Shown: one piece after another, positions 5,942 through 54,599 of the stretch | Layout of the letters: every line of letters starts with the position of its first letter | Numbering within the stretch: the stretch's first letter is position 1 | From: Pyrus communis | Taxonomy: Eukaryota; Streptophyta; Magnoliopsida; Rosales; Rosaceae | Reading direction: 5' to 3' | Assembly (NCBI RefSeq): GCF_963583255.1 | Contig: NC_084803.1 | Span: 11,977,978-12,041,977, forward strand | DNA: 64,000 bases | The notes under the pieces: generated by a model | Told to the model about the DNA's origin: nothing | The model's input: the letters and a program-made list of their open reading frames with translations, nothing else | Databases searched by the model: none | Program-made: the position numbers and the translations under genes

Positions 5942-8291
5942 TCAATTCTCATCCTCCGCGTCTTGTAAGAGCAACCAGGAGAGGTACTCAGGCTCTAGGC
6001 CCAACTGATCCGGTGGAGTCACCCGTTTTCGTAAGAGCATTTCTATGGTCGGACACTTCCTCTTAAGGCCGCCCCTTGGCCTTGACTGGAATTGTTCGTC
6101 AGCCTCTATGAAATCCCCCTGCAAATCAAAATAATGTTCCAAATATGAATTTGTAATGTGGCATTTTCCCAGAAAGATGCTTATCTGAAAATCCATGCAT
6201 AGAAAGGGTATTGAATGCTCCAAGAACAAAACTCACATAGGCATAAACATGGCGTCGAGTCTTCTCATGGTTATCTCTCACATGCTTGTATGCAAATCTC
6301 ATGCCACACCCCGAAAAGCTACAGGCAAAAGGTTTATCTTCAAGGTGTACAGCCTTGACATGTTGAGTGAGATTTGATTTCTGCAAATGTCCAGCCAAAA
6401 CCAGAAAAGGAGTCAAAAATAACCATGGCAACACAGAATAACAAACAATAAATTTTCTGTACCAAAATAATGCAACCAATCCAAGGCCGCAACTTACAGT
6501 TGAAAATGTGTGAAGACAACCCTTGTAACTGCATCTAATTCTCTCAACTGAAGGCGCTCCTCCTTTATGGGTGAGTAGATGCCTTTTGATGTTCCTTTTT
6601 AACTTTTTGGAACCACATATCTCACACGTAACATGTTGGTGGCAGGACAGGATATGGTCCTTGAGGCATTGGCCATTGGTAAAATATTTCATACAACCTG
6701 CTTCAGAGCAGAATGCCTCCACTGAATCCATATGAACTACAGAAATGAAGGATATTGTTTTTAGTTTGCAATTAACATAGTGCTGAAAACATAAATAAGG
6801 ATTTAGAAATGAAAGCTACCATGAGAACTCTCATGCTTCTGCAACTTTGAAGCAAATAAAAACACCTTTCCACAACCAACTTCCTGGCACACATGCTGCT
6901 TCTGACCTCTTCCAACATAGGTGCCATCCTCACTATGAAGTTCTTTAACATGCCTGCTCATGTTACCTTGGCAAACAAATCCACGATTACAGTTCTCAAT
7001 TGGACACTTAAAGAGTTTCCCTTGGTGCTGAAGAAGGTGGCGATTTAAGTGGTCTTTTCTTCTGAAGCTGGAACGGCAATCATCCACCGAACAAACATAT
7101 GGCCTCTGTACAGAATAAGCTAACATAAATAATGAACCAATAAACACAATTCCAAAACCCACATGAACACGAATTCAAATCACATATTACGTGATTGAGG
7201 CTCTCTTGATGGAGCTTCACAGGAGGTCTCCCACCTGTTACTGGTCCATTCAAGTCAAACGCTCTCGCATTTTGGAGTTCTTGATTGGGATCCAATGCTT
7301 CACGTTGTCCAATGGATACTTCATTAAAATGTTGATTCCTGCAAAATTTCTAACTTCAACCGATGCAAACATAACGAAAACTTCATACAAAAGTAAAGAG
7401 AATAAGTTAAAGCGAATTCACAAACAAACTACACGTGTTCAAGCATTCAAACCTCAAACTGAAAGGTATGTGACTGAGGCTCGCTTGATGGAGCTTCACA
7501 GGAGGTCTCCCACCTGATACTGGTCCATTCAAGTCAAAAACCTCTCGCATTTTGGAGTGCTTTGTGTGGGATCCAATGCTTCACGCTATCCAAAAGATAG
7601 TTCTTAAAAATATCGATTCCTGCAAAACTTCAATCTTCAATTGTTGCAAACATGACGTAAACTTCATCGAAAAAGTACGGAAAGCTACAGACACAATCAA
7701 CTCATATGAAACTATCACAAACTAAGCTGTGTGAGCATCATCAACTGGATTCAGTGCAAATATAATAAGCCAATTACATACTTTTCCTATACAAAAACAT
7801 GTAAAAGCTAAGAAACTTTGAATTCAACACCAATCAAATACCTCAAGGGAGTGGCTTTGCATGCGTTGCTTCAAATGTGCAGGTTTTTTTAAAGTAGCAC
7901 CACAATCTTCGCAAGTATTACATTTTTCCTTCTCTCCTTCCCCTTCCCCACCAGCCTCTTTTGCCATATCCATCTGCTACAGCATATAAGAAAATAGAGA
8001 AAAACTAAATAAAAATAAACACAATCAATCTGAATAAAACCCAAAACTTCAAATTTCGATGAAAATACAAAAACCAAATCGACCCACAACAGTAAATCCC
8101 TCGAATTCAAAAAACCAAATCGGAAAAATTCATAATTTGATCAAAAAGACGGGATTGGAAACCTTGTGGTGATCGAGGATGTGAGAAGCGATCAGAGTCT
8201 TTTTGGAGCCGCAGATCCCGCAGAATTCACAGTAATATCGCCTTATGTCCTTGAAAACTGGCAATTTCTGATCTGCTTCTCAGTTATCCAT
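5942..8291 (-). CDS. Transcription factor IIIA, spliced, with an in-frame TGA at codon 4
   Basis: TFIIIA binds the internal control region of 5S rRNA genes, and 5S rRNA itself, to recruit RNA polymerase III. I infer six exons (plus coordinates, read on minus): 8291-8163, 7976-7842, 7105-6820, 6736-6498, 6380-6237 and 6118-5942. Together they give 370 codons. Nine C2H2 fingers are seen, including [34 protein letters not shown] and FACSFSGC. They are followed by the conserved tail [10 protein letters not shown], as in Arabidopsis TFIIIA. Two oddities stand out. The frame reads Met-Asp-Asn-stop before [11 protein letters not shown], and the first zinc-binding His of finger 2 is Arg (HLKQR, residue 81). 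Exon 2 has a TAG/CAG tandem acceptor. The intron between exons 2 and 3 carries two 5S-mimic elements. If the TGA is real, translation would have to restart at the exon-2 ATG, losing finger 1. It could also be an assembly error or a decaying copy. Confidence 0.85.
7191..7304 (-). promoter_or_regulatory. 5S rRNA mimic (P5SM) alternative exon of TFIIIA, copy A
   Basis: On the minus strand this reads GCATTGGATCCCAATCAAG, then ACTCC, then CAGGTGGGAGACCTCCTG and TGAAG. These follow the order of plant 5S rRNA landmarks (GGATCCCATCAGAACTCC and GGATGGGTGACCTCCTGG). It lies in sense orientation between the SHSLE and RPYVC exons, the position known for the plant P5SM exon, where ribosomal protein L5 binding to the mimic controls exon skipping. 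A good donor (AC followed by GTAATATG) starts at 7190. The acceptor that copy B has is AA here, so an internal AAG ending at 7298 would be needed. With that acceptor the frame shifts to an early stop; with the 114-base exon it would stay open. Confidence 0.85.
7470..7585 (-). promoter_or_regulatory. 5S rRNA mimic (P5SM) of TFIIIA, copy B (tandem duplicate)
   Basis: This second copy of the mimic is nearer exon 2. It reads GCATTGGATCCCACACAAAG, ACTCC, CAGGTGGGAGACCTCCTG and TGAAG on the minus strand. It has an acceptor (GGATAG ending at 7586), but the position of copy A's donor reads ATACCT, so the matching donor is lost. Read from the acceptor, the frame after SHSLE meets TGA after 18 codons, as expected of a poison exon. 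The two copies differ at roughly one base in eight by eye. Confidence 0.8.
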
Positions 8292-14372: not shown

Positions 14373-17300
14373 ATGGCTGACTCTTCTTCTTCCGATGGTG
14401 TTTTTTCCCTTCATCATTCCGACCACCCGAATCTTGTCCTTGTATCCAAGAAGTTGCAGCTTGCGATGCCTGACCTCTTTGCCGAGCAGCACTCCCGTGT
14501 TCTAGCTGCTCTACGTGACACCACCACCCCTCCTCAGGCCAATGCCGTGCTCACTACTGATTTTGCCCAAGGTTTGTTACATGTCACCTCTCGTCATGAT
14601 CAATGGATTCTTGACAGTGGTGCTACGGATCATATTACTTCTTCCGCTTCATGTTTGGTTAATCGTTCTCCTTCACATTTGCCGCCTGTTTCTTTGCCTA
14701 GTGGTGTTTCCGCTCCCATTACTTTTACCGGCACTTTTCCTTTAAATTCATCAGTTACTTTGAAGGATGTTTTATGTGTCCCTAATTTCCGAGTGGACCT
14801 TTTATCGGTTGGTAAACTTACAGATGGATTATCGTGTTCCATAACCTTCTTTCCTTCTTGGTGTGTTTTGCAGGATTTGGTTTCGAAGGCGACGATTGGT
14901 GTGGGTAAGCGACGTGGCGATCTGTATTACCTTGTGGCCCTTACCTCTTATCTCCCCACCCGTCAACCTCTCTGCAACATCATTACCATCCCCTCCTCCC
15001 TCTGGCATAGGCGTCTTGGTCACCCCTCCTCCACTCGTTTGCAAGCTTTAGCATCTAGCTCTCTTAATTGTACTTTTGATTCTAGTCATATTTGTGATGT
15101 TTGTCCGTTGGCAAAACAAACTCGTCAACCTTTTCTTTTGAGTTCAATTTCCTCAACTTTCCCTTTTGCTTTAATTCATTGTGATATTTGGGGCCCGAAT
15201 CGTCAATCTTCTCTTTCTGGTGCTCATTATTTCTTAACCATTGTGGATGATTTTTCTCGCTTTACGTGGGTCTTCCTCATGAAACATAAATCCGACACTC
15301 AACAATTAATTAAGGATTTTTTTGCTTATGTCACTACCCAATTCCGCACTACCATCCAATGCATTCGTACTGACAATGGTGGTGAATTTTTATCTCTTCG
15401 TAGTTTTTTCTCTGATCATGGGGTGCTTTTACAAACTTCTTGTGTTTATACCCCCCAACAAAATGGCATTGTTGAAAGAAAACATCGTCATCTTCTTGAA
15501 ACCGCTCGCGCCCTTCGTTTTCAATCCCATCTTCCTATCAAGTTTTGGGGGGGAATGTGTTTTTACCGCTACTTATCTCATCAATCGTTTCCCTACCCGT
15601 CTTCTCCATCATAAATCCCCATTTGAGGTTCTCTTTTCGAAAACCCCATCTTATGACCACTTCCACGTCTTTGGTTGTCTGGCATATGCCACCTCTGTCA
15701 CTCCCACCACCAAATTTTCCCCTCGGGCTCATCGTTGCATTTTTCTCGGTTATCCTCTGGGACAAAAGGCCTATACCCTTTACGATCTCGACAATCACCG
15801 CATTTTCACTAGTCGAGACGTCATCTTTCACGAAACTACTTTCCCTTATGCCGTTTCTCACCCTCCTATCCCATCCTCTTCGCCTACCCTACCCATCCCA
15901 CCCTCTCTGGACTTTACATATAACCCACCCCTTCCTGCCCCGACGCCTCATCCTCCTCCACCTTCTTCCCCTTCCACGCCTCCCACAGATTCCCTTGCTG
16001 CCCATTACCCGTTCCTCCCCATGCCCCTGCCCTCTCGGCATCCCCTCCTTCCCCCCCCTACTTCCTTACCTTTCACCCTTTTACCCACGGACATCCCTAC
16101 CCCCCCACTACCTACCAATCCTCCCCTTCCCCGCACCTCTTCCTGTGCCCATAAACCTCCATCCTATTTAAAAGACTACGTTTGCTCGCAGGTGATTCTG
16201 CCATCCCACCCATCTTCGACTTCGCAACCCGGTTCTACACAAGGTACGCGATATCCACTTTGTAATTTTCTCTCTTATCACCGTTACTCTCCCAGGCATT
16301 TTTCTTACATTAACTCTGTCAGTCGGACTGTGGAGCCTTCCTCCTTTGCCGAGGCTGCCACTGACCCCAATTGGCAACGTGCTATGACTGAGGAGCTTCA
16401 AGCTTTACATGCTAATGGTATTTGGACTTTAACTTCCTTGCCCCCTGGCAAAATTCTCATTGGTTGTAAGTGGGTGTACAAACTCAAGCACAATTCCGAC
16501 GGCTCTATTGACCGCTACAAAGCTCGTTTGGTTGCTAAAGGCTTCACTCAGGCTGAAGGTATTGATTATCATGACACTTTTTCTCCTACTGCTAAGATGA
16601 TTACGGTGCGTTGTCTTCTTGCTCTTGCTGCTAGTCAGTCTTGGTCTCTTCATCAGCTTAATGTTAATAATGCTTTCTTACATGGTGACTTACATGAAGA
16701 AATCTATATGTCTCCTCCTCCTGGTCTTCGGCGACAGGGGGAGAATCTTGTGTGTCGCCTTCACAAGTCACTTTATGGTCTTAAGCAGGCTTTTCGCCAA
16801 TGGTTTGCCAAATTCACTAGTGCCATCATTTCTGCCGGTTTTCAACAATCCAAAGCTGACTATTCATTGTTCACTAAAAAGTCTGGTATTTCTTTCACAA
16901 GTTTGCTCATTTATGTGGATGATATTGTGATTACAGGCAATGATGCTAGTGCCATTAATTCTCTGAAGTCTTTCCTCCGTGATCATTTTCGGATAAAAGA
17001 CCTTGGTGATTTAAAATATTTTTTGGGTATTGAGGTTTCTCGTTCCAAACAAGGGATTTATATTTCTCAACGCAAGTATGCATTAGAGATTCTCAAGGAC
17101 TATGGTTTTTTGGGAGCACGACCCATTGCTTTTCCTATGGATGACACAAAATTATCTGATAAAGGAGAACTTCTCAAGGATCCTGAAAAGTATCGACGAT
17201 TAGTAGGTCGGTTAATATATCTCACTATCACTCGCCCGGATATCACCTATTCTGTACATGTTCTAAGCCGTTTTATGCACGAGCCAAGGATATCTCATAT

Positions 17301-17862
17301 GGATGCTGCGCTTCGTATTGTTCGTTATTTGAAGGCTACTCCAGGTCAAGGTTTATTATTTCGTTCTGACAACCAGACCAAGTTAACTGCGTTTTGTGAT
17401 TCTGATTGAGCAGATTGCCCTATCACTCGCCGTTCGACTACTGGGTATTGTGTATTCTTGGGCGGTTCTTTGATTTCTTGGCGGACGAAACGACAGAAAA
17501 CCGTTTCGCTCTCTTCAGCAGAGGCGGAATATAGGGTCATGGCAGGTGCTTGTTGCGAGATAGTTTGGCTTCGTTTTTTGTTGAAGGATTTGAACATTCC
17601 TTTGGATGGTCCTTCCATTTTATTTTGTGATAATCAAGCAGTGTTACATATAGTTGCCAATCCTGTTTTTCATGAACGAACTCGTCACATTGAGATGGAT
17701 TGTCACTTTATACGAGATAAGATTGTAGATGGCACAATAGAGACCAAGCATGTGGGTACGGCACAACAGTTGGCAGACTTGTTTACCAAACCTCTTGGGA
17801 AAGAAAAGTTTTCGGGTATGTTACGCAAGTTGGGAGTTCTTGACATCCACTCTCCAACTTGA
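14373..17862 (+). pseudogene. Defective gag-pol of copia element 1
   Basis: The frame opens with ATG 14373 (MADSSSSDGVFS) but jumps after about 30 codons from the gag start (HPNLVLVSKKL) to the region before protease. Most of gag and its zinc knuckle are therefore gone. Then come protease DSGATDH, the pre-integrase HRRLGHPS and CDVCPLAKQ, integrase HCDIWGP, RTDNGGEF and QQNGIVERKH, RT YVDDIV and RNase [10 protein letters not shown] run of seven G near 15546 shifts the frame; the pol frame resumes as ECVFTATYLINR. TGA at 17407-17409 replaces the Trp of CDSDW. The RT motif LNVNNAFLHG has Asn where the catalytic Asp (as in LDVxNAFLHG) belongs. The product cannot be functional. Confidence 0.9.
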
Positions 17863-31914: not shown

Positions 31915-34900
31915 ATGGGCGATCCAATACCTAAGACGTCCATTGACACCCAAAAACCTATGGAGACATTCACAGATGTCTCGAACCCTTTTATCATACA
32001 TCCCTCAGATCAACCTGGGAATATCTTGGTCTCCAAAACACTTCAAGGAGACAACTACAATACCTGGAGTCGTGCTATGCGAATCAGCTTGAGCGCGAAA
32101 AATAAACTTGGCATGGTTGATGGCACCATTGACCCTCCATCAGAGACTGACAAACAATTTGCATCATGGCAAAGATGCAATGATATGGTCCTTGCCTAGA
32201 TTCTCAACTCAGTCCACGACGATATTGCGAGCAGCGTTTCTTATTACACAACAGCAGCCGATGTTTGGGCAGACCTGCGAGATCGTTTCTCACAAGGAAA
32301 CGACTCACGCATTTATCAAATCAGGAGAGAGATCGTTGAACACAGACAGGAACAACAATCGATCCAGGTTTACTACACGAAACTGAAAGCGTTGTGGGAT
32401 GAACTGGCATCCTACAATGAAACTCCGACTTGCACCTGTGGGGGATTGAAGAAGATGAATGATCGAGATGAGAAAGAAAAGGTGATGCAGTTCCTGATGG
32501 GTTTAAACGACACTTATGCAGCAGTACGTGGACAGATACTATTGATGCAGCCACTACCAGACACTCGGAGGGCATATTCCCTTGTTCTTCAACAAGAGAA
32601 GCAAGTAGAGGTATCTCTAAATCGTAACAATATAAATATGCATGCTATGAATATAACCCGTAACAGGGAAACTGCTGCATCAAAAGGAAACACCATTCAA
32701 TGCTCATATTGTGATCAAAAATACCACACCGTGGATCGATGCTTTTACCTGTATGGTTTCCCGCCTGGCCATAAGTATCATGGCAAATCAGTCAAGCCAC
32801 CAAATAAAAGAAAACCTGCGGCGAACCAAGTCACGGTGGAGACCGAGACCACCAAGGGTGTAGACTCACGACACAAGGCGACGTCCAGTGACGGTCCAAA
32901 GTTCACCACAGAAGAATATAATCAACTTATGGCAATGCTCAAGAAGAGCAACATTGATGGTAATCCGCAGCATTTTGCAAATGCAACAGGTACAATCACA
33001 CCTTCTTCTGACTTGTCAGAGAAAACTTTATATTGGATCATTGATAGTGGGGCAACAGACCATGTATCTCCTTCTCCTCATTTGCTAGAAAAGAAGTCAT
33101 TATCCATGTTGGATTCTGTTCAATTGCCGAATGGAGGACATGCCTTAATAGACTCGATTGGTTCTATACAAGTTACCCCACACATTAAACTTGATGGAGT
33201 GCTCCATGTGCCCAACTTCCGAGTTCACTTATTATCTGTTAGCAAACTTACTGAAGCATTACGATGCATAGTGATTTTCTTCCCTGATTTCTGTGTGATA
33301 CAGGACATGGATACGAGGAGGACGATTGGCCTGGGCAAGCGATATAATGGGCTTTACTACTTGGCGCCAGAACACAACCTTCGCCTCGCTCATCACATTA
33401 GCCGCAACTTCACCCTCTGGCACCAACGATTAGGGCACCCTTCTACCGGTCCTCTGCAAACTTTAACCAAACAAGTTCCATCAATAGTATTTGATTCCAG
33501 TCATACATGTGACATTTGTCCTCTTGCTAAACAAACCCGGTTATCTTTTCCGTCCAGTTTTATTTCTTCTAAAGCACCTTTTGATTTGATACATTGTGAT
33601 ATTTGGGGACCTCACCGAGTCAATTCCCATTCGGGGGCTCGGTATTTTTTAACGATTGTTGATGATTATTCTCGCTATACTTGGATACATCTCATGCGTT
33701 TTAAATCCGAAACACAAGGATTGTTACGTTCCTTTATTGCTTGGGTCCAAACACAATTTCATTGCATGCTTAAAACACTTAGGGCTGATAATGGTGGTGA
33801 ATTTACCTCTTTACGTCCTTTCTTTGATAACAAGGGTATCATATTCCAAACTTCTTGTCCGTCCACGCCCCAACAAAATGGGGTTGTTGAACAGAAACAC
33901 CGTCATCTCCTCAATGTTGGTCGAGCTCTACGGTTTCAAGCCAATTTACCACAACATTTTTGGGGGGAAAGCATACAAACAGCATGTTATTTAATTAATC
34001 GTTTACCTACACCTCTTCTTGGTCATAAAACTCCTTATGAGCTTTTGCATCGTCACACTCCCGATTTTTCGCATCTTCGGGTTTTCGGTTGTTTGTGTTA
34101 TGCTACCAACCTCCATCCTCACCATAAGTTTGACCAACGTGCTCAAAGATGTATTTTTATTGGGTATCCATTAGGTCAGAAGGGCTATCGTGTTTATGAC
34201 CTTAAGACACACAAAATTTTTTCCACTCGTGACGTGATCTTCCATGAAGCCACGTTCCCTTTTTCCTCTCAACCACTTGACCATCACCCTGCTACACCTA
34301 TCCTACCTATCCCCACCGACTCTCCATCTCATCCTAATCCCACACCGCCACCGACTGCACCTCCTGTACCCACACCGACCGACATCCTTTTACCCACACC
34401 GACAGAAACTGCTCCTCTCACTCCCATATCACCCTCTCTTCCCACACCAACCGACCCTCACTTAGTCTCTCCACCACTTCCTACCCCACCTGCCCCCCCT
34501 GCCCCTCGCCAATCTGGCCGTGCCCTCAAGCCCTCCGTCAGGCTTCAGGGATACCATTTATATCATGTGCAATCTCTTGCTCCAAGCGCCACGTCCTCCT
34601 CCATGTCAGGTACTCGCTATCCTTTATCTCACTATGTATCTTATGCTCATCTTTCACCATCGCATCGCTCTTTTGCTTGTGCTATTTCGACTCTTGTCGA
34701 ACCCACTACATTTGCACAGGCTAACGGTGATCCTCAATGGCGTGCTGCCATGGACTCTGAGCTTCTGGCCCTTGAACAAAACAACACATGGACTCTCACT
34801 ACCTTACCTCCTGGTCATCGCGCCATCGGTTGCAAATGGGTATACAAAATCAAGTACCACTCCGATGGTACCGTCGAGCGTTATAAAGCTCGTCTTGTGG

Positions 34901-36234
34901 CCAAAGGTTTTACTCAACGCGAAGGTATCGATTACAAGGAAACTTTTGCTCCTGTTGCCAAACTCATCACCGTCCGTTGTTTATTAGCCGTTGTTTCAGT
35001 TCGTCATTGGTCCTTACATCAAATGGATGTCCATAATGCCTTCCTTCATGGTGACCTTTGTGAGGAAGTTTATATGCAGCTGCCTCCTGGACTTCATCGG
35101 CAGGGGGAGAATAATGTATGCCGACTCAACAAGTCCCTTTATGGCCTTAAGCAAGCCTCTCGCAGCTGGTTCCATAAATTTTCCACTGCCATAAGTCAAG
35201 CCGGCTACCAGCAGTCAATGGCTGACTACTCCCTATTCACTAAGGTGCGTGGAGATTCGTTTACAGCCGTCTTGCTTTATGTTGACGACATGATTATCAC
35301 AGGCAACGATGAGGCTGCCATCCGTGACCTCAAGCAATTTCTTCAATCCCATTTTCGCATTAAGGACCTTGGACACTTAAAGTATTTCCTCGGTGTGGAG
35401 GTGGCTCGGTCTTCTCAAGGAATCGCCATCTCACAACGTAAATATACACTTGACATTATTGATGAGGCCGGCTTACTTGGTGCAAAGCCTGCAAAGTTCC
35501 CAATGGAAGAAAACTTGAGATTATCTCCAACGGAAGGGCAACTTCTCCATAATGCCTCGCAATACAGGAGGCTTGTTGGGAAACTTATTTATCTCACAAT
35601 CACGAGGCCAGAGATTTCATACTCAGTCCATATACTCAGCCAATTTATGCAACAACCAAGAAAGCCTCATCTAGATGCAGTGCATCGTCTTCTACGATAC
35701 TTAAAGGGATCACCTGGACAAGGGCTTCTTTTTCCTTCAAATGGGAGTTTGACATTGAAAGGATATTGCGACGCCGATTGGGCTCGCTGTCCACTTACAA
35801 GAAGATCTGTCACAGGCTATTGTATATTTCTTGGAGGTGCACTAGTTTCTTGGAAAACCAAGAAACAATCTACCGTTTCGAGATCCTCAGCTGAAGCGGA
35901 GTATCGTGCCATGGGTTCAGCTACATGTGAGCTCACGTGGATGAAGTACCTATTGGCTGATCTGCAAATTGATCACAAGGGTCCGACAAGGTTACACTGT
36001 GACAACCAAGCTGCACTTCACATAGCTGCCAATCCCGTTTTTCACGAACGCACCAAACACATAGAGATCGACTACCATGTTGTTCGAGAACGACTGCGTT
36101 CTGGGATTATTTCGACAGCCTATGTACCTACTGGACAGCAGCTTGCCGACATATTCACCAAGCCACTTGGACAGTCAGCATTCCGTTCTCTACTTGGCAA
36201 GATGGGTGTTCTTGACATTCACACTCCACCTTGA
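31915..36234 (+). CDS. gag-pol polyprotein of copia element 2 (one in-frame TAG)
   Basis: A single frame of 1,440 codons including the stop encodes the whole polyprotein. Domains in order are gag (ILVSKTLQGDNYNTWSRAMR), zinc knuckle CSYCDQKYHTVDRC, protease DSGATDH (about residue 376), pre-integrase HQRLGHPS and CDICPLAKQ, integrase HCDIWGP, RADNGGEF and QQNGVVEQKH, a proline-rich linker, RT MDVHNAFLHG and YVDDMI (about residue 1120), and RNase H CDADWARC and SSAEAEYRA. All catalytic residues I can check are present. TAG at 32197-32199 replaces a probable Trp codon, leaving a 94-residue gag piece. Apart from that the element looks competent. Readthrough or recent mutation are both possible; mutation is the simpler reading. 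Confidence 0.92.
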
Positions 36235-45084: not shown

Positions 45085-45956
45085 GAGTAGAAATGAACTT
45101 GTTTGTGTAGTTCTTTGTTGCCATGTACACATATGCAGTAATGTTCATCAGTTCATGAGGTCTGGATGTATCTTAGCACAAGATTTCTCCAAGTTCCTAC
45201 ATTATTTTGGTGTCGTCTATAGTAAATTAGAGAAAAAAACACCCTAACAATTATAAGATTTATAAAATGAAAAAACACTACAAGGGCTCAATTGAAGAAC
45301 AGAAAAAAAAAAAACAAAAAAACAAAAAAAAAAAAAACCCTTAACTATTCGCTTTTTATGTTTTAAACGATTCTTAGTTGCAACAATCATTTTCCCATCG
45401 CAAAGTATGAAGGGTGACTTGCTAAAGTTTTATATGTGAAAAGCCTTATTGTCTACACTTACATCATAAGTTTACACGCAGTAAGTGAGCAGTTTTTCGA
45501 TGTATTCAGAACACAGTCACGTAACGTTATTATTCTATTTAAATTATAACACGTGAAATAGTGCACCACGTAACTTGTGTTACGTGTATAAGATGATAAA
45601 CTACTAGTGTTATGGTTAAGTGTGTACAAATCAAATTTGATAATTTATATTAATCACTTGTGGAACTAAATATTGGTATTGGACCAAAAGAGAAACAAAA
45701 GGGGCATGGGGGTTCCGCAGATAGAGTTGCGCATTCAGTACGGGTTCCTCACGTAAACGGCACCGTTTTCCCCATAAACTGGAATAAAAGAAAATCCGCT
45801 TTCACCAGCAGAAGGTACAGAACTGGAAAATATTACAGAGAGACTGATCTTTCTTCTTCTTCGTCTTCTGAAAATAGGGTTTAGGGTTTTCGTTTACGGA
45901 AAATCCCCAATTCAGTGACTTCAAAACAGCGTCGTTTCATCACCACATTCACGCCA

Positions 45957-48647
45957 ATGGGGACCGAACTGATGGTCACAACGGACAGAGTCCAGAAGTT
46001 CTTTGGCGACCTAGACGAGCAGAAGGCGATACTCTCCACCTCCACCAAGCTTTTCACAACCCTCTCCGACCACTTCGATTCCCTCCAGAAATCCATCTCC
46101 GAGAAATCCCATTCCCTCGAATCCAAAATCCAATCCCTCGAATCCCGTACCCGCGAAAACTCACACTCTCTCGACCACCGGGAGGCTTCCATCCCGGAGC
46201 GGGGGTCCTCCGCCGCCGCCAGAATCGAGGAGCAGAAATCCGCGGCCTTGGCAGAGGTGGAGAAGAAAGCATCCGGGGATTTGGATTTGCCGGAGACCCT
46301 GAAATCGTTTTGCAGGAAAATGGACTCGCAGGGGTTGGTGAAGTTCATCGTTTCGAAGCGGAAGGAGTCTATATCGCTCAGGGCGGAGATTGTGCAGGCA
46401 ATTGCGGAGGCGGTGGACCCGCCAAGATTGGTGCTTGATGCATTGGAAGAGTTTTTGGATTCTAAAGCCAAGAAATTGGGGGTTACCGATAAGCGGTGGG
46501 CGTGCGGGCTGTTAGTTCAAGCTCTGTTTCCGGAGGGTAAAGCCGGCCCAAAAGGGCCGGAGTTTTCCAGGAGCATGTTGGAGAGAGCGACGGGGATTGT
46601 AGATACGTGGAAGGCGCATATGGGTGGAGATTCAAACGGTGGTGGCTGTACGTTGGGGGCTGCGGAGGCGGTGATGTTTGTGCAAATGCTCGTTGGGTTT
46701 CGATTGAAAGAGAAGTTCGGTGAGGAGTTCTTTCGGAAGTTGGTAATGGAGCACGCAGCGAGGAGGGATATGGCAAAGCTCGCAGGGGCTTTAGAATTCG
46801 GAGAAAAAATGGGAGGTATGGTTTTGTTTAATCAAAACTCAAATGGTTTTACAAACCATGTTCTTTATGGTAACTTCTTGTTATAGAACTTTCAATTGCT
46901 CACGAATATATACATATATGATAGGGATAGAACCCTGGTACATACATTGTGACAGTTCCAAAGAAACTTATGCTACCACTTGTTGAGAAACTTGTATTTC
47001 GAATGGTCTTTCTGCCTGCATAACGAGGCATAACCAATCGAACCAGATCCCATAAGTGATTTAGTGGGCATGTGCTTCGGGTTTTAAAAAAATTTTGAGC
47101 CTAGCAAAGCCAAAATCAAGTTAATGTAGACACTTATTAAGCCAGTAGGACTGATTTCAGTCTCACTGTTGCTTTGTCACAAAATGAAATCTGAATTTGC
47201 ATTGTAATTTAGAAAATCAGCACTTCTTTTGGCTAATGTATTGTGTATTTGTTATCAATGGTATTTAGGTTCTTAACCTTTATGAAGTATTTTAATATCA
47301 GGGTATCCTTAGCATGTGTTAAAGCAAAAAACTTTTACCACTTGTACGTTATTTTGTTTAGAATTTGAGCTGCAGCTGGGATAGTTAACATACTAAATTT
47401 TTATGGAGAGTTTACATCTTTCAGAAATTGCTGCACAGTAGAAGATATTTGATGTGTATTAGGTGTTAAGTTTCACGACTATAATTTGGTAGCCTTCATA
47501 CATTTGCTTAAAGTTAAATACTAGAAATATGTTTGTGTTTCCATTTGAGGCATGAAAATGTTAATTCCAATGTACATCTGTCAGTTGCCCATTTTCTGAA
47601 ACGAATGTGATTGTGGCTTGGTTAAGTGTTTGCTACACTCATTTGTGTATTTTGAGAGGATCCTTCTTTCATTGGCTTTTCTCTCTTCGGTGCAGCATCA
47701 ATATCTGATTTCCTAGATTCACAACTTGGCAGTATTCCCTTCTTGTGTATATTTGGTGAAAAAAATTCTGATTTTTACAGATGTCATTGATGAATTTGTG
47801 AAGAATGGCAAGGAGATAGAGGCCGTATATTTTGCTTCTGAGTCTGGTTTGACTGAGAGTTTTCCTCCTGTTTCTCTGCTCAAATCGTATCTCAGAAACT
47901 CCAGAAAGAATGCTACGACCATATTGAAGAACGGCAATAATAGTGTGGCTGCAACTGTATGTGTAACTTTCCTTTTGTCTTTAGTTTCCCGATGTAGTTT
48001 TGTTTTCCACTCTGTAATCTGCACACTTGAGGGAGATTTATTAATCGAAGTCCATCTTACAGGAGGAGTCGAGCACAATGGAGTTGAATTCCATCAAAGC
48101 AATCATCAAATGTGTAGAAGACCACAAGCTTGAATCAGAGTTTTCTCTTGAGAGCTTAAGAAAGCGGGCTACTCATCTGGAGAAAGGCAAGACAGAAAAG
48201 AAGAAGAGCTCAGCATCTTCCAGCAAGCCCCATAATAATAAGCGAGCCTACGGTGGGGGTGGGGGTGGCGGCCGAGGGGTTGGACAGTCTTCATTCCGCC
48301 CTGCCAAAGCAGCCAAGTTTTCCAATTCATACCCCTCCTTTACCAGGAGGAACCCAAATCCTCTTCCACAACATAGCCCCGCAACAAGATATTCTGGTCC
48401 TTACAGTTACCCGAGCCAAAGTGTGTTCGATGGTCCAACGGCACCATCGTATGGATCCTCATATGGTGCACCCTCTGCTCAAAGCCCCGCTGCTCTTCCT
48501 CAACACTACTCCCTCCCTGGGGACAGCATGGGTTCTGCCGGGTTTGGAAGCAGTGGTGCTTATGGTGGCGGCCAGACCAACTACGTCCCATATAATTACT
48601 CGAATGTTGCTCCACCGGCATACCAGCCTCCCTCGTATCCGCAATAG
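45957..48647 (+). CDS. FRIGIDA-like protein (FRL3/4-type)
   Basis: Three exons, 45957-46815, 47781-47956 and 48063-48647, give 539 residues. I chose the ATG at 45957 because family members begin MG-E-LMVTTDRVQKFFGDL. The N-terminal third is coiled coil (repeated SLESKIQSLESRTRENSHSL). The Frigida domain runs from about residue 120 (LKSFCRKMDSQGLVKFI) through EIEAVYFASESGL and LLKSYLRNSRKNATTILK to about 380. The C-terminus is low-complexity Gly/Ser/Tyr/Pro after a basic KTEKKKSS linker. FRIGIDA relatives act as nuclear scaffolds; FRIGIDA itself promotes FLC expression, while the role of the FRL3/4 branch is less certain. A broken copy of exon 2 lies at 26100. Confidence 0.9.
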
Positions 48648-53273: not shown

Positions 53274-54599
53274 ATGGATAAAAGAAAGATTGTGGCATGC
53301 TTCATTGTTAACGTGTGGTACTTGAATATTGTGACTTGGTTGATGATGTGGTTCATCAAGAATCATAATTCAGCTAGAAGGCGAAATTGGCAACTTGCAC
53401 TTAGAAATCGCACATTTGTTAGGAGAATGGTAGGGTCAACCTATTTAGATAGCATAATAGGATATGATGATGTTCAGTGTGTGAACCAATTTAGAATGGT
53501 TAGAAGAACGTTCCATTATTTATGTCAAATGCTTCGTGACCACGGTAAAGTAAAATTGGATGGTGTAGTGACAATGGAAGAACAAGTTTGCATGTTTTTG
53601 CATATACTTGCACATCATGTCAAGAATCGTACAATTGGGAGTAGGTTTTGTCGATCAAGGGAGACCATAAGTAGGTATTTCAATTCCATTCTACATGGAG
53701 TGTTAAGGCTACAAGGTAAACTTTTGAAAGTGCCAGAACCCATTCCTAATGCCTACCCAGATCCTAAATGGAGTTGGTTTGAGGCATTCTTCATATTTTA
53801 TAAAAATTACTTCTAAAATTAATGTAATTAAATATATTGAGCATACTAATGTTAATGATTTTTTTTAGAATTGCTTGGGGCATTGGATGGGACTTACATT
53901 AACGTTCATGTCCCTGAGCGAGATAAACCAAGATACCGATCAAGGAAGGGAGAGATTGCGACCAATATTTTGGGAGTTTGTAATGTGGACATGAATTTTA
54001 TATTTGTGTACCCAGGTTGGGAAAGGTCGGCATCTGATTCTAGAGTACTCCGAGATGCGATAAGTAACAATAGATTATTTGTTTATATTAGTAATTTGAA
54101 TCCTCATTTTTCTTATATATAGTAATATACATTTTTGTGTGTGTTAGGGTGTTACTACCTTGTGGATGATGGGTACACAAATGGTCCAGGATACCTTGCA
54201 CCGTATAAGGGAGTGCGTTACCATCTCTCGGAGTGGAGAAATAGAAGACTCCCGATTAATCATGAGGAGTATTTCAATATGAAACATGCTCAAGCTAGAA
54301 ATGTCATTGAGAGATGTTTTGTACTACTTAAGATGCGTTGGAGCATCTTAAGAGGTCCATCATTTTTCCCAATTAAAACACAATTTAGGATTATGACAGC
54401 CTGCTGCCTATTACATAATCTTATTAGAAGGCATATGTCAGCTGATCCAATAGAAAATGAAATCCTAAACTTGGACGAATCTGAAAGTAGTGATGATGAT
54501 GAAGATATGATTGACAGTGTTCAACCTACACAAGAATGGACTGCATGGAGAAACACTTTGGCTATGAATATGTACAATGAGCGGCGTGCACAAGTGTGA
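53274..54599 (+). CDS. PIF/Harbinger DDE transposase (possibly splice-defective)
   Basis: Exon 1 starts at ATG 53274 (MDKRKIVACFIVNVW) and carries the HTH-like region (FRMVRRTFHYLCQMLRDHG, GSRFCRSRETISRYFNSIL) to WSWFE near 53783. Exon 2 (53869-54090) has the first Asp in LLGALDGTYINVHVP and the second in ASDSRVLRDA. Exon 3 (54148-54599) has CYYLVDDGYTNGPGYLAPYK and the catalytic Glu in NVIERCFVLLKMRW. It ends with an acidic tail (ESESSDDDEDMID). The exon 2-3 junction has a usable GTAATT donor, but no GT donor lies at the expected end of exon 1 (GAGGCATTC), so intron 1 may not splice correctly. All three DDE residues are present. Confidence 0.82.

Follow-up and report, generated by a model that had tools for sequence, protein, structure and literature searches.

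Two tandem P5SM exons, mimics of 5S rRNA, in a single intron of a TFIIIA gene of Pyrus communis

A TFIIIA gene of Pyrus communis has two tandem copies of P5SM, the plant 5S rRNA mimic, in one intron. The gene lies on the minus strand of the window, the whole stretch of 64,000 nucleotides that was analysed, and the upstream exon U (167 nt, 7453..7619, minus strand) and the downstream exon D (148 nt, 7191..7338, minus strand) both sit in sense orientation in the intron at 7841-7106, between the exon that ends in SHSLE and the exon that starts with RPYVC. An earlier note on this DNA had described this arrangement, which is borne out. The span of 7191..7585 that it gave to the pair is right at its lower limit, the end of D, while its upper limit is a single base past 7584, where the U core starts, and the U exon itself runs from 7619 to 7453. 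The sequence shows that the P5SM cassette exon was duplicated in tandem long ago and that both copies still have the P5SM fold, and on balance it favours, if only by a little, a reading in which they act as poison exons in series.

The single-copy P5SM exon of plant TFIIIA, as described in the available text of PMC8617911, PMC12218528, PMC6164485 and PMC5568362, resembles the pear exons in that it is located in the same gene, has a 5S-like fold and is a cassette exon with a premature stop. In pear, by contrast, two loci each have a pair of such exons, placed in series and differing in their 5' splice sites. When ribosomal protein L5 binds the single mimic, the exon is skipped and nine-finger TFIIIA is made, and retention of P5SM gives a premature stop and the seven-finger form, according to the parts available of PMC6164485 and PMC4538838. 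Stop-bearing transcripts with the single P5SM exon are described, in the text available, as undergoing nonsense-mediated decay. In one partly available account the seven-finger variant is said to be induced by RPL5, opposite to the usual direction (PMC8617911), and the contacts of L5 on 5S rRNA are placed at helix II and loop C in the accessible part of another (PMC6164485).

The host gene is read entirely on the minus strand. Exon 1 (8163..8291) codes for ZF1, and conceptual splicing gives exon 2 (7842..7973), which codes for ZF2 and ends in SHSLE at the donor GAG/GTATTT (the slash in splice sites marks the exon boundary), exon 3 (6820..7105), which starts with RPYVC and carries ZF3 onward, and exons 4-6 within 5942..6736 (6736-6498, 6380-6237 and 6118-5942, the last with the stop). 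Translated from the AUG in exon 2, the spliced product matches P0001, named transcription factor IIIA-like isoform X2 of Pyrus communis, without a difference across 325 aa. Annotated P0001 has no finger 1 and starts in exon 2. In exon 1, the ATG at 8291-8289 is followed in frame by a TGA at 8282-8280, the fourth codon of 8280-8291, where apple P0002 and P0003 have Arg. In ZF2, Arg replaces the first zinc-binding His (7863-7865, minus strand); the His motif of this finger was matched in 107 of 121 proteins, with His in 106 and Arg in one, pear P0001. In an alignment of 16 chosen proteins, P0001 retains the C and H that are conserved in fingers 3-9. Since finger 1 is missing, a ligand of ZF2 has changed from His to Arg and fingers 3-9 are kept, the window gene appears from its sequence to be in effect a seven-finger TFIIIA. 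Because of these coding lesions, the stop before ZF1 and the lost zinc ligand of ZF2, its regulation may be under relaxed selection. Elsewhere in the window, an open 1344-aa frame of Copia type with integrase core, RVT_2 and gag-pre-integrase domains occupies 32200-36234 (plus strand), another frame with RVT_2 lies at 15310-17409, and pieces of a Frigida-like gene and a DDE_Tnp_4 transposase piece are found at 45885-46886, 48045-48647 and 54126-54599 (plus strand).

A search of the 487-Mb pear genome (29 contigs) with U as the query, whose counts are lower bounds, located at least five P5SM places at three TFIIIA loci. These are U1 and D1, the pair of the window (locus L1), U2 and D2 on contig C10 (locus L2, or L006, with protein P0014), and a single copy, B, on contig C1 at 40.9 Mb (L007). 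The loci also differ in their coding parts. Exon 2 of locus B, cut by hand, is 134 nt long, and its reading frame shifts within finger 2. In P0014, a conserved His (position 200 in the P0002 numbering) is replaced by Tyr. Intact fingers 1 and 2 are coded only at L2 among the three pear loci.

U has the acceptor TTTTGCAG/GAATC, the donor GAG/GTTTGA and an in-frame UGA at exon codon 13. D has the acceptor TTTTGCAG/GAATC, the donor CAC/GTAATA and an in-frame UAA at exon codon 5. These splice sites were called from sequence only, with a splice-site matrix of approximate frequencies as a rough guide. The apple (P0005, P0015) and Prunus (P0017, P0019) gene models finish the D stretch at the same His ahead of RPYVC. 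The donor GAG/GTTTGA is common to U1, U2 and B and is located 17 nt beyond the UCAC strand of the closing helix, P1. In isoform X1 of Argentina anserina, the additional stretch has its end equally far out, the span from PQS onward measuring nine residues in each case. D1 and D2 are without this donor and instead have CAC/GTAAT right after the UCAC strand, so the D fold adjoins its own 5' splice site. The next base, a G, can give a fifth C-G pair of P1 in D1, U2 and B, and cannot in U1 and D2. All five pear copies have a stop in the phase of the exon 2 end, exon 2 of locus B being itself frameshifted; the stop is the UGA at codon 13, inside the P1 strand, in U1, U2 and B, and the UAA at codon 5 in D1 and D2. 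With U, D or both included in the window gene, translation from the exon-2 AUG stops after 48-56 residues. The sequence CACATACCTTT of U was considered as a U12-type (AT-AC) donor and rejected, since by eye it departs from the consensus of such donors. A one-base difference in length from AUG to GG was likewise rejected as a marker of U and D type, because by manual count pear D2 has the U length.

RNAalifold gives one fold for the five pear exons, in which P1 is formed by GUGA/UCAC, P2 matches helix III of 5S rRNA and P3 corresponds to helix V, loop E and helix IV, with a GAGA loop. This fold extends over 7470..7584 in U and over 7191..7303 in D (both minus strand), and the P1 strand UCAC of D is the last four bases of the exon. 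Standard pairs fill 97.3% of the pair cells, and sliding the partners reduces this value to 28.8-48.4%. Covariation is thin, with a single pair showing changes in both partners; of 500 shuffles, 64-79 attain the observed values. Folding of four stretches as single sequences was uninformative (z from -0.76 to -1.42).

The two copies were compared through covariance models that each exclude one type, R1 built from D1, D2 and B and R2 from U1, U2 and B; all reference copies come from pear, and calibration was short, so the E-values are rough. R1 finds U1 with 133.2 bits (E 5.1e-32), above D1 (129.0 bits), which R1 contains, and R2 finds D1 with 115.8 bits (E 1.2e-24). Both copies thus score as P5SM in the cross-tested models (5e-32 and 1e-24), and the refuting outcome named in the earlier note, a P5SM score for one copy alone, did not occur. 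Both models also detect the L006 pair and the single copy of L007. The sole further match in the window, at 105-188 (13.9 bits, E 0.47, R2 only), looks like chance.

Likeness to 5S rRNA itself is much more uneven. In the Rfam scan of the window no family reached its gathering score, and no segment qualified as a 5S rRNA gene or pseudogene; the cow-rumen-3 family matches U with 19.7 bits, below its cut-off of 86.7. On the Rfam 5S model, which has a cut-off of 38 bits, D1 scores 18.5 bits (positions 1-120) and U1 11.9 bits (positions 67-109), with E-values of 0.13 and 6.9, respectively, when all 4227 families are considered, and the other pear copies are also below 38, with 20.0 bits for U2 (1-120), 15.5 for D2 (1-120) and 18.0 for B (11-110). 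Since U2 scores 20.0 bits and U1 11.9, it is the window U, and not U-type copies as such, that is a poor 5S mimic. Among the positions at which U and D disagree, the four best conserved in 5S rRNA all show the consensus base in D. One base of loop C (7559..7559, minus strand) is C in U and A in the other four pear copies of the alignment, giving GCAC for GAAC, and the A lost in U matches the 5S consensus. Apple P0005, from locus 1, has His at the loop-C codon, the same change as in the window U, which argues that the change is old. The helix II of D is no better than that of shuffled sequences, 880 of 2000 shuffles being equally good.

The grouping of the five copies dates the duplication. Gap-free columns with a shared state number 16 for D1 with D2 and 12 for U1 with U2, and 0-3 for every other pairing. 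In a P5SM tree (200 bootstrap replicates), D1 and D2 group with a value of 100 and U1 and U2 are separated from the rest with 92. Distances are 0.066 for U1-U2, 0.094 for D1-D2, 0.19-0.23 between U and D copies and 0.21-0.26 from any copy to B. Since U groups with U and D with D, the duplication is older than the split between L1 and L2, which is taken here to be the genome duplication of the apple-pear tribe (Maleae). A protein tree of 28 chosen rows places pear beside apple within L1 and, separately, within L2, both groupings carrying starred support.

Plant genomes commonly contain pieces derived from 5S rRNA, and two of these could in principle have been inserted independently; alternatively, the pair could be an artefact of assembly. 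Either origin is extremely improbable. The U and D repeat units align over about 240 bases and share the tract upstream of the 3' splice site as well as sequence beyond the 5S match, and they differ at 40 of 226 aligned sites. The 31-base core GGTGGGAGACCTCCTGTGAAGCTCCATCAAG has two matches in the 64 kb with up to three mismatches allowed, both of them exact, and at most 0 across 100 shuffles. The pair, moreover, recurs on the second pear contig, C10, and in apple and Prunus records, so a single copy doubled by the assembly, which the earlier note had named as a possible refutation, is contradicted. The grouping of U with U and D with D contradicts both origins.

Comparison of L1 with L2 also shows how far each exon has been held constant. 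The U exon differs at 12 of 167 positions and the D exon at 10 of 148 (U against D, p=1), and all bases of introns 1 and 2 outside both exons differ at 74 of 590. The pooled exons (22/315) are less divergent than these introns (Fisher p=0.009), and each exon alone gives p=0.054 (U) or p=0.059 (D) against the intron bases. Four intron pieces taken without the tracts before 3' splice sites serve as an alternative yardstick (62/476, p=0.0067). The main yardstick is made of introns 1 and 2. Just ahead of U, the intron tract matches the U exon in conservation (3/58 between L1 and L2), so low divergence may be a local property. Because both exons differ less than the introns between the two loci, neither looks like a plain decayed spare, and the retention of both copies is supported by sequence, modestly in statistics. 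The similarity of U and D within the window is concentrated in the P2/P3 core, which has 1 substitution in 84 sites against 35 in 133 for the rest (Fisher p=1e-7); this value is too good, since the segments were drawn after the alignment had been seen. Against the 3' splice site tract alone (16/63), the core gives p=4e-6. Gene conversion could explain part of this similarity. Loop C and a bulge, both divergent, interrupt the conserved stretch, which makes a single conversion tract less likely but is no argument against several.

These data bear on the suggestion in the earlier note that one copy may be a decayed spare, which finds no support in its simple form, the two exons having diverged alike, although the window U has the loop-C change and the low 5S score. 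Simple decay of U had been suspected at first from this low score, from the absence of a 5S-like helix II and from ATA in place of the GT donor of D. It was set aside, the U donor being common to U2 and B and placed as the exon end of Argentina X1, and the P5SM consensus fold being closed by GUGA/UCAC without helix II. A less simple version is that D is the only L5 sensor in the window gene and that U is a former P5SM that now drifts and is mostly skipped. This is rather unlikely, yet it has the better 5S score of the partner U2 over U in its favour (20.0 against 11.9 bits), together with the agreement of D with the 5S consensus at all four differing conserved positions, the absence from U of both the loop-C A and the C-G extension of P1, and the placing of L5 contacts at helix II and loop C in the available part of PMC6164485. 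It is opposed by a U-U2 divergence no greater than that of D-D2 (12/167 v 10/148, p=1), by the model of D1, D2 and B, which scores U (133.2) over D1 (129.0), by the splice sites and stop that U has kept, and by the age of the loop-C change, which apple P0005 also has.

Outside pear, the evidence consists of gene-model proteins that translate the mimic, and 120 of 485 matches were listed in the first protein search. The mimic motif GGRPPxKL is present in at least eight among the 122 proteins compared and occurs twice in three of these (apple P0005 from locus 1, apple P0015 from locus 2 and Prunus yedoensis P0019). Strawberry P0122 has one full copy, preceded by a piece that reads like a second copy in a shifted frame, which suggests that this record, too, has the pair. 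One copy is seen in Prunus brigantina P0017, apple P0025 (B lineage), Argentina anserina P0040, Rosa rugosa P0121 and Oxalis P0118, a one-copy gene model not being proof of a one-copy intron. When parts that code for the mimic served as queries, two protein searches yielded 6 and 7 proteins, every one from Rosaceae. Scans of viral and prokaryote collections were of no help in finding plant relatives. If the pair is of one origin, it would be at least as old as the split between Prunus and Maleae and perhaps date from early Rosaceae. A count of labels on the protein tree comes to two changes, owing to the one copy seen in Prunus brigantina P0017, and a separate duplication in Prunus is a possible alternative to the single origin.

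Several of these models read through the mimic. Rosa rugosa X2 (P0121) and Prunus yedoensis P0019 start at an AUG inside it (MREG/MREV) and continue into fingers 3-9, and this AUG is a possible start of the seven-finger form. In Argentina anserina X1 (P0040), a mimic stretch of 159 nt is read without a stop and adds 53 residues between fingers 2 and 3. The two pear exons might give different products, inclusion of U with D opening a frame from the AUG of U through D into fingers 3-9, a seven-finger form with a mimic-encoded N-terminus, and inclusion of one exon being a dead end. Such a division is improbable. In the window gene (L1), for which this frame was established, U (167 nt) with D does give a 363-aa frame from the AUG of U, against at most 233 aa for U (167 nt) alone or D alone, and the models of apple P0005 and P0015 and Prunus P0019 run through both copies. 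However, these models may only reflect gene finders in search of open frames, P0015 and P0019 differ in how the copies are joined, and a U exon ended at CAC (150 nt, with no GT there in pear) has a 308-aa frame by itself.

The two exons are best considered as P5SM poison exons in series, a working proposal that would operate as follows. The productive mRNA would be the one in which exon 2 is joined to exon 3, both U and D having been skipped. If skipping of the two exons is independent, the productive share would be the product of the two skipping shares, from which a steeper response to free L5 and a lower basal level would be expected; a possible change of the L5 response curve had also been proposed in the earlier note. 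D would be the more directly gated copy, since its donor adjoins P1 and the G that opens the intron can, in the window copy, lengthen this helix. U would be gated less directly, because its ancestral donor is 17 nt beyond P1 and its loop C is without the conserved A. The change in loop C could weaken the predicted binding of L5 by U, and the window U may respond more weakly to L5, because L5 is said to touch loop C. Both L2 copies keep GAAC. A more far-reaching version, which is tentative, is that of an ancient two-sensor RNA gate, in which tandem L5-sensing exons would have survived the whole-genome duplication, persisted over tens of millions of years and become specialised, with the U donor outside the fold and the D donor at the closing helix. 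Free L5 would then be read over two ranges, or in a steeper, AND-like manner, and the loss of the loop-C A in U would retune one locus.

The founding papers on the single-copy P5SM exon are reportedly Hammond 2009 and Fu 2009. Together with one 2010 article, they are outside the plant TFIIIA literature covered here, in the available portions of which no tandem P5SM was found (PMC5568362, PMC4374538, PMC10952736, PMC6164485, PMC4538838, PMC8909551, PMC8617911, PMC12218528 and PMC10753412). The view that a duplicated sensor is not the described arrangement fits these sources, which in the text available speak of one exon or intron. Tandem mutually exclusive exons, for example those of U2AF1 in the part of the description available, have a similar layout, with an exon duplicated side by side and differentially included. 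In the U2AF1 type, however, one of two coding exons is used, whereas in pear both exons have stops and the productive mRNA would contain neither. Tandem riboswitches (TPP, glycine) also place two like sensors in series in one transcript, an arrangement expected to steepen or combine responses, but they are bacterial, have small-molecule ligands and do not involve splicing. HyP5SM, an engineered suicide exon, behaves like P5SM, being retained without its L5 and skipped with it, and differs in that it was engineered, as a single copy, to be insensitive to dicot L5 (PMC4538838, in its available text).

The natural tandem P5SM in TFIIIA would thus be a new arrangement of a known element, with a role of the second copy that is, for the present, a predicted one. 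Some viroids infect pome fruit. The splicing of TFIIIA matters for the supply of 5S rRNA and, through the seven-finger form, for viroids, as stated in the available part of PMC6164485, and P5SM is counted, in the accessible text of a 2025 paper, among the three plant RNA structures known to influence splicing in cis (PMC12218528). The series of copies shows the 5' splice site shifting relative to the fold, which bears on how the binding of L5 hides the exon. With two-copy loci and a one-copy paralog in the same genome, pear provides a natural test of the effect of a second sensor on the L5 dose response.
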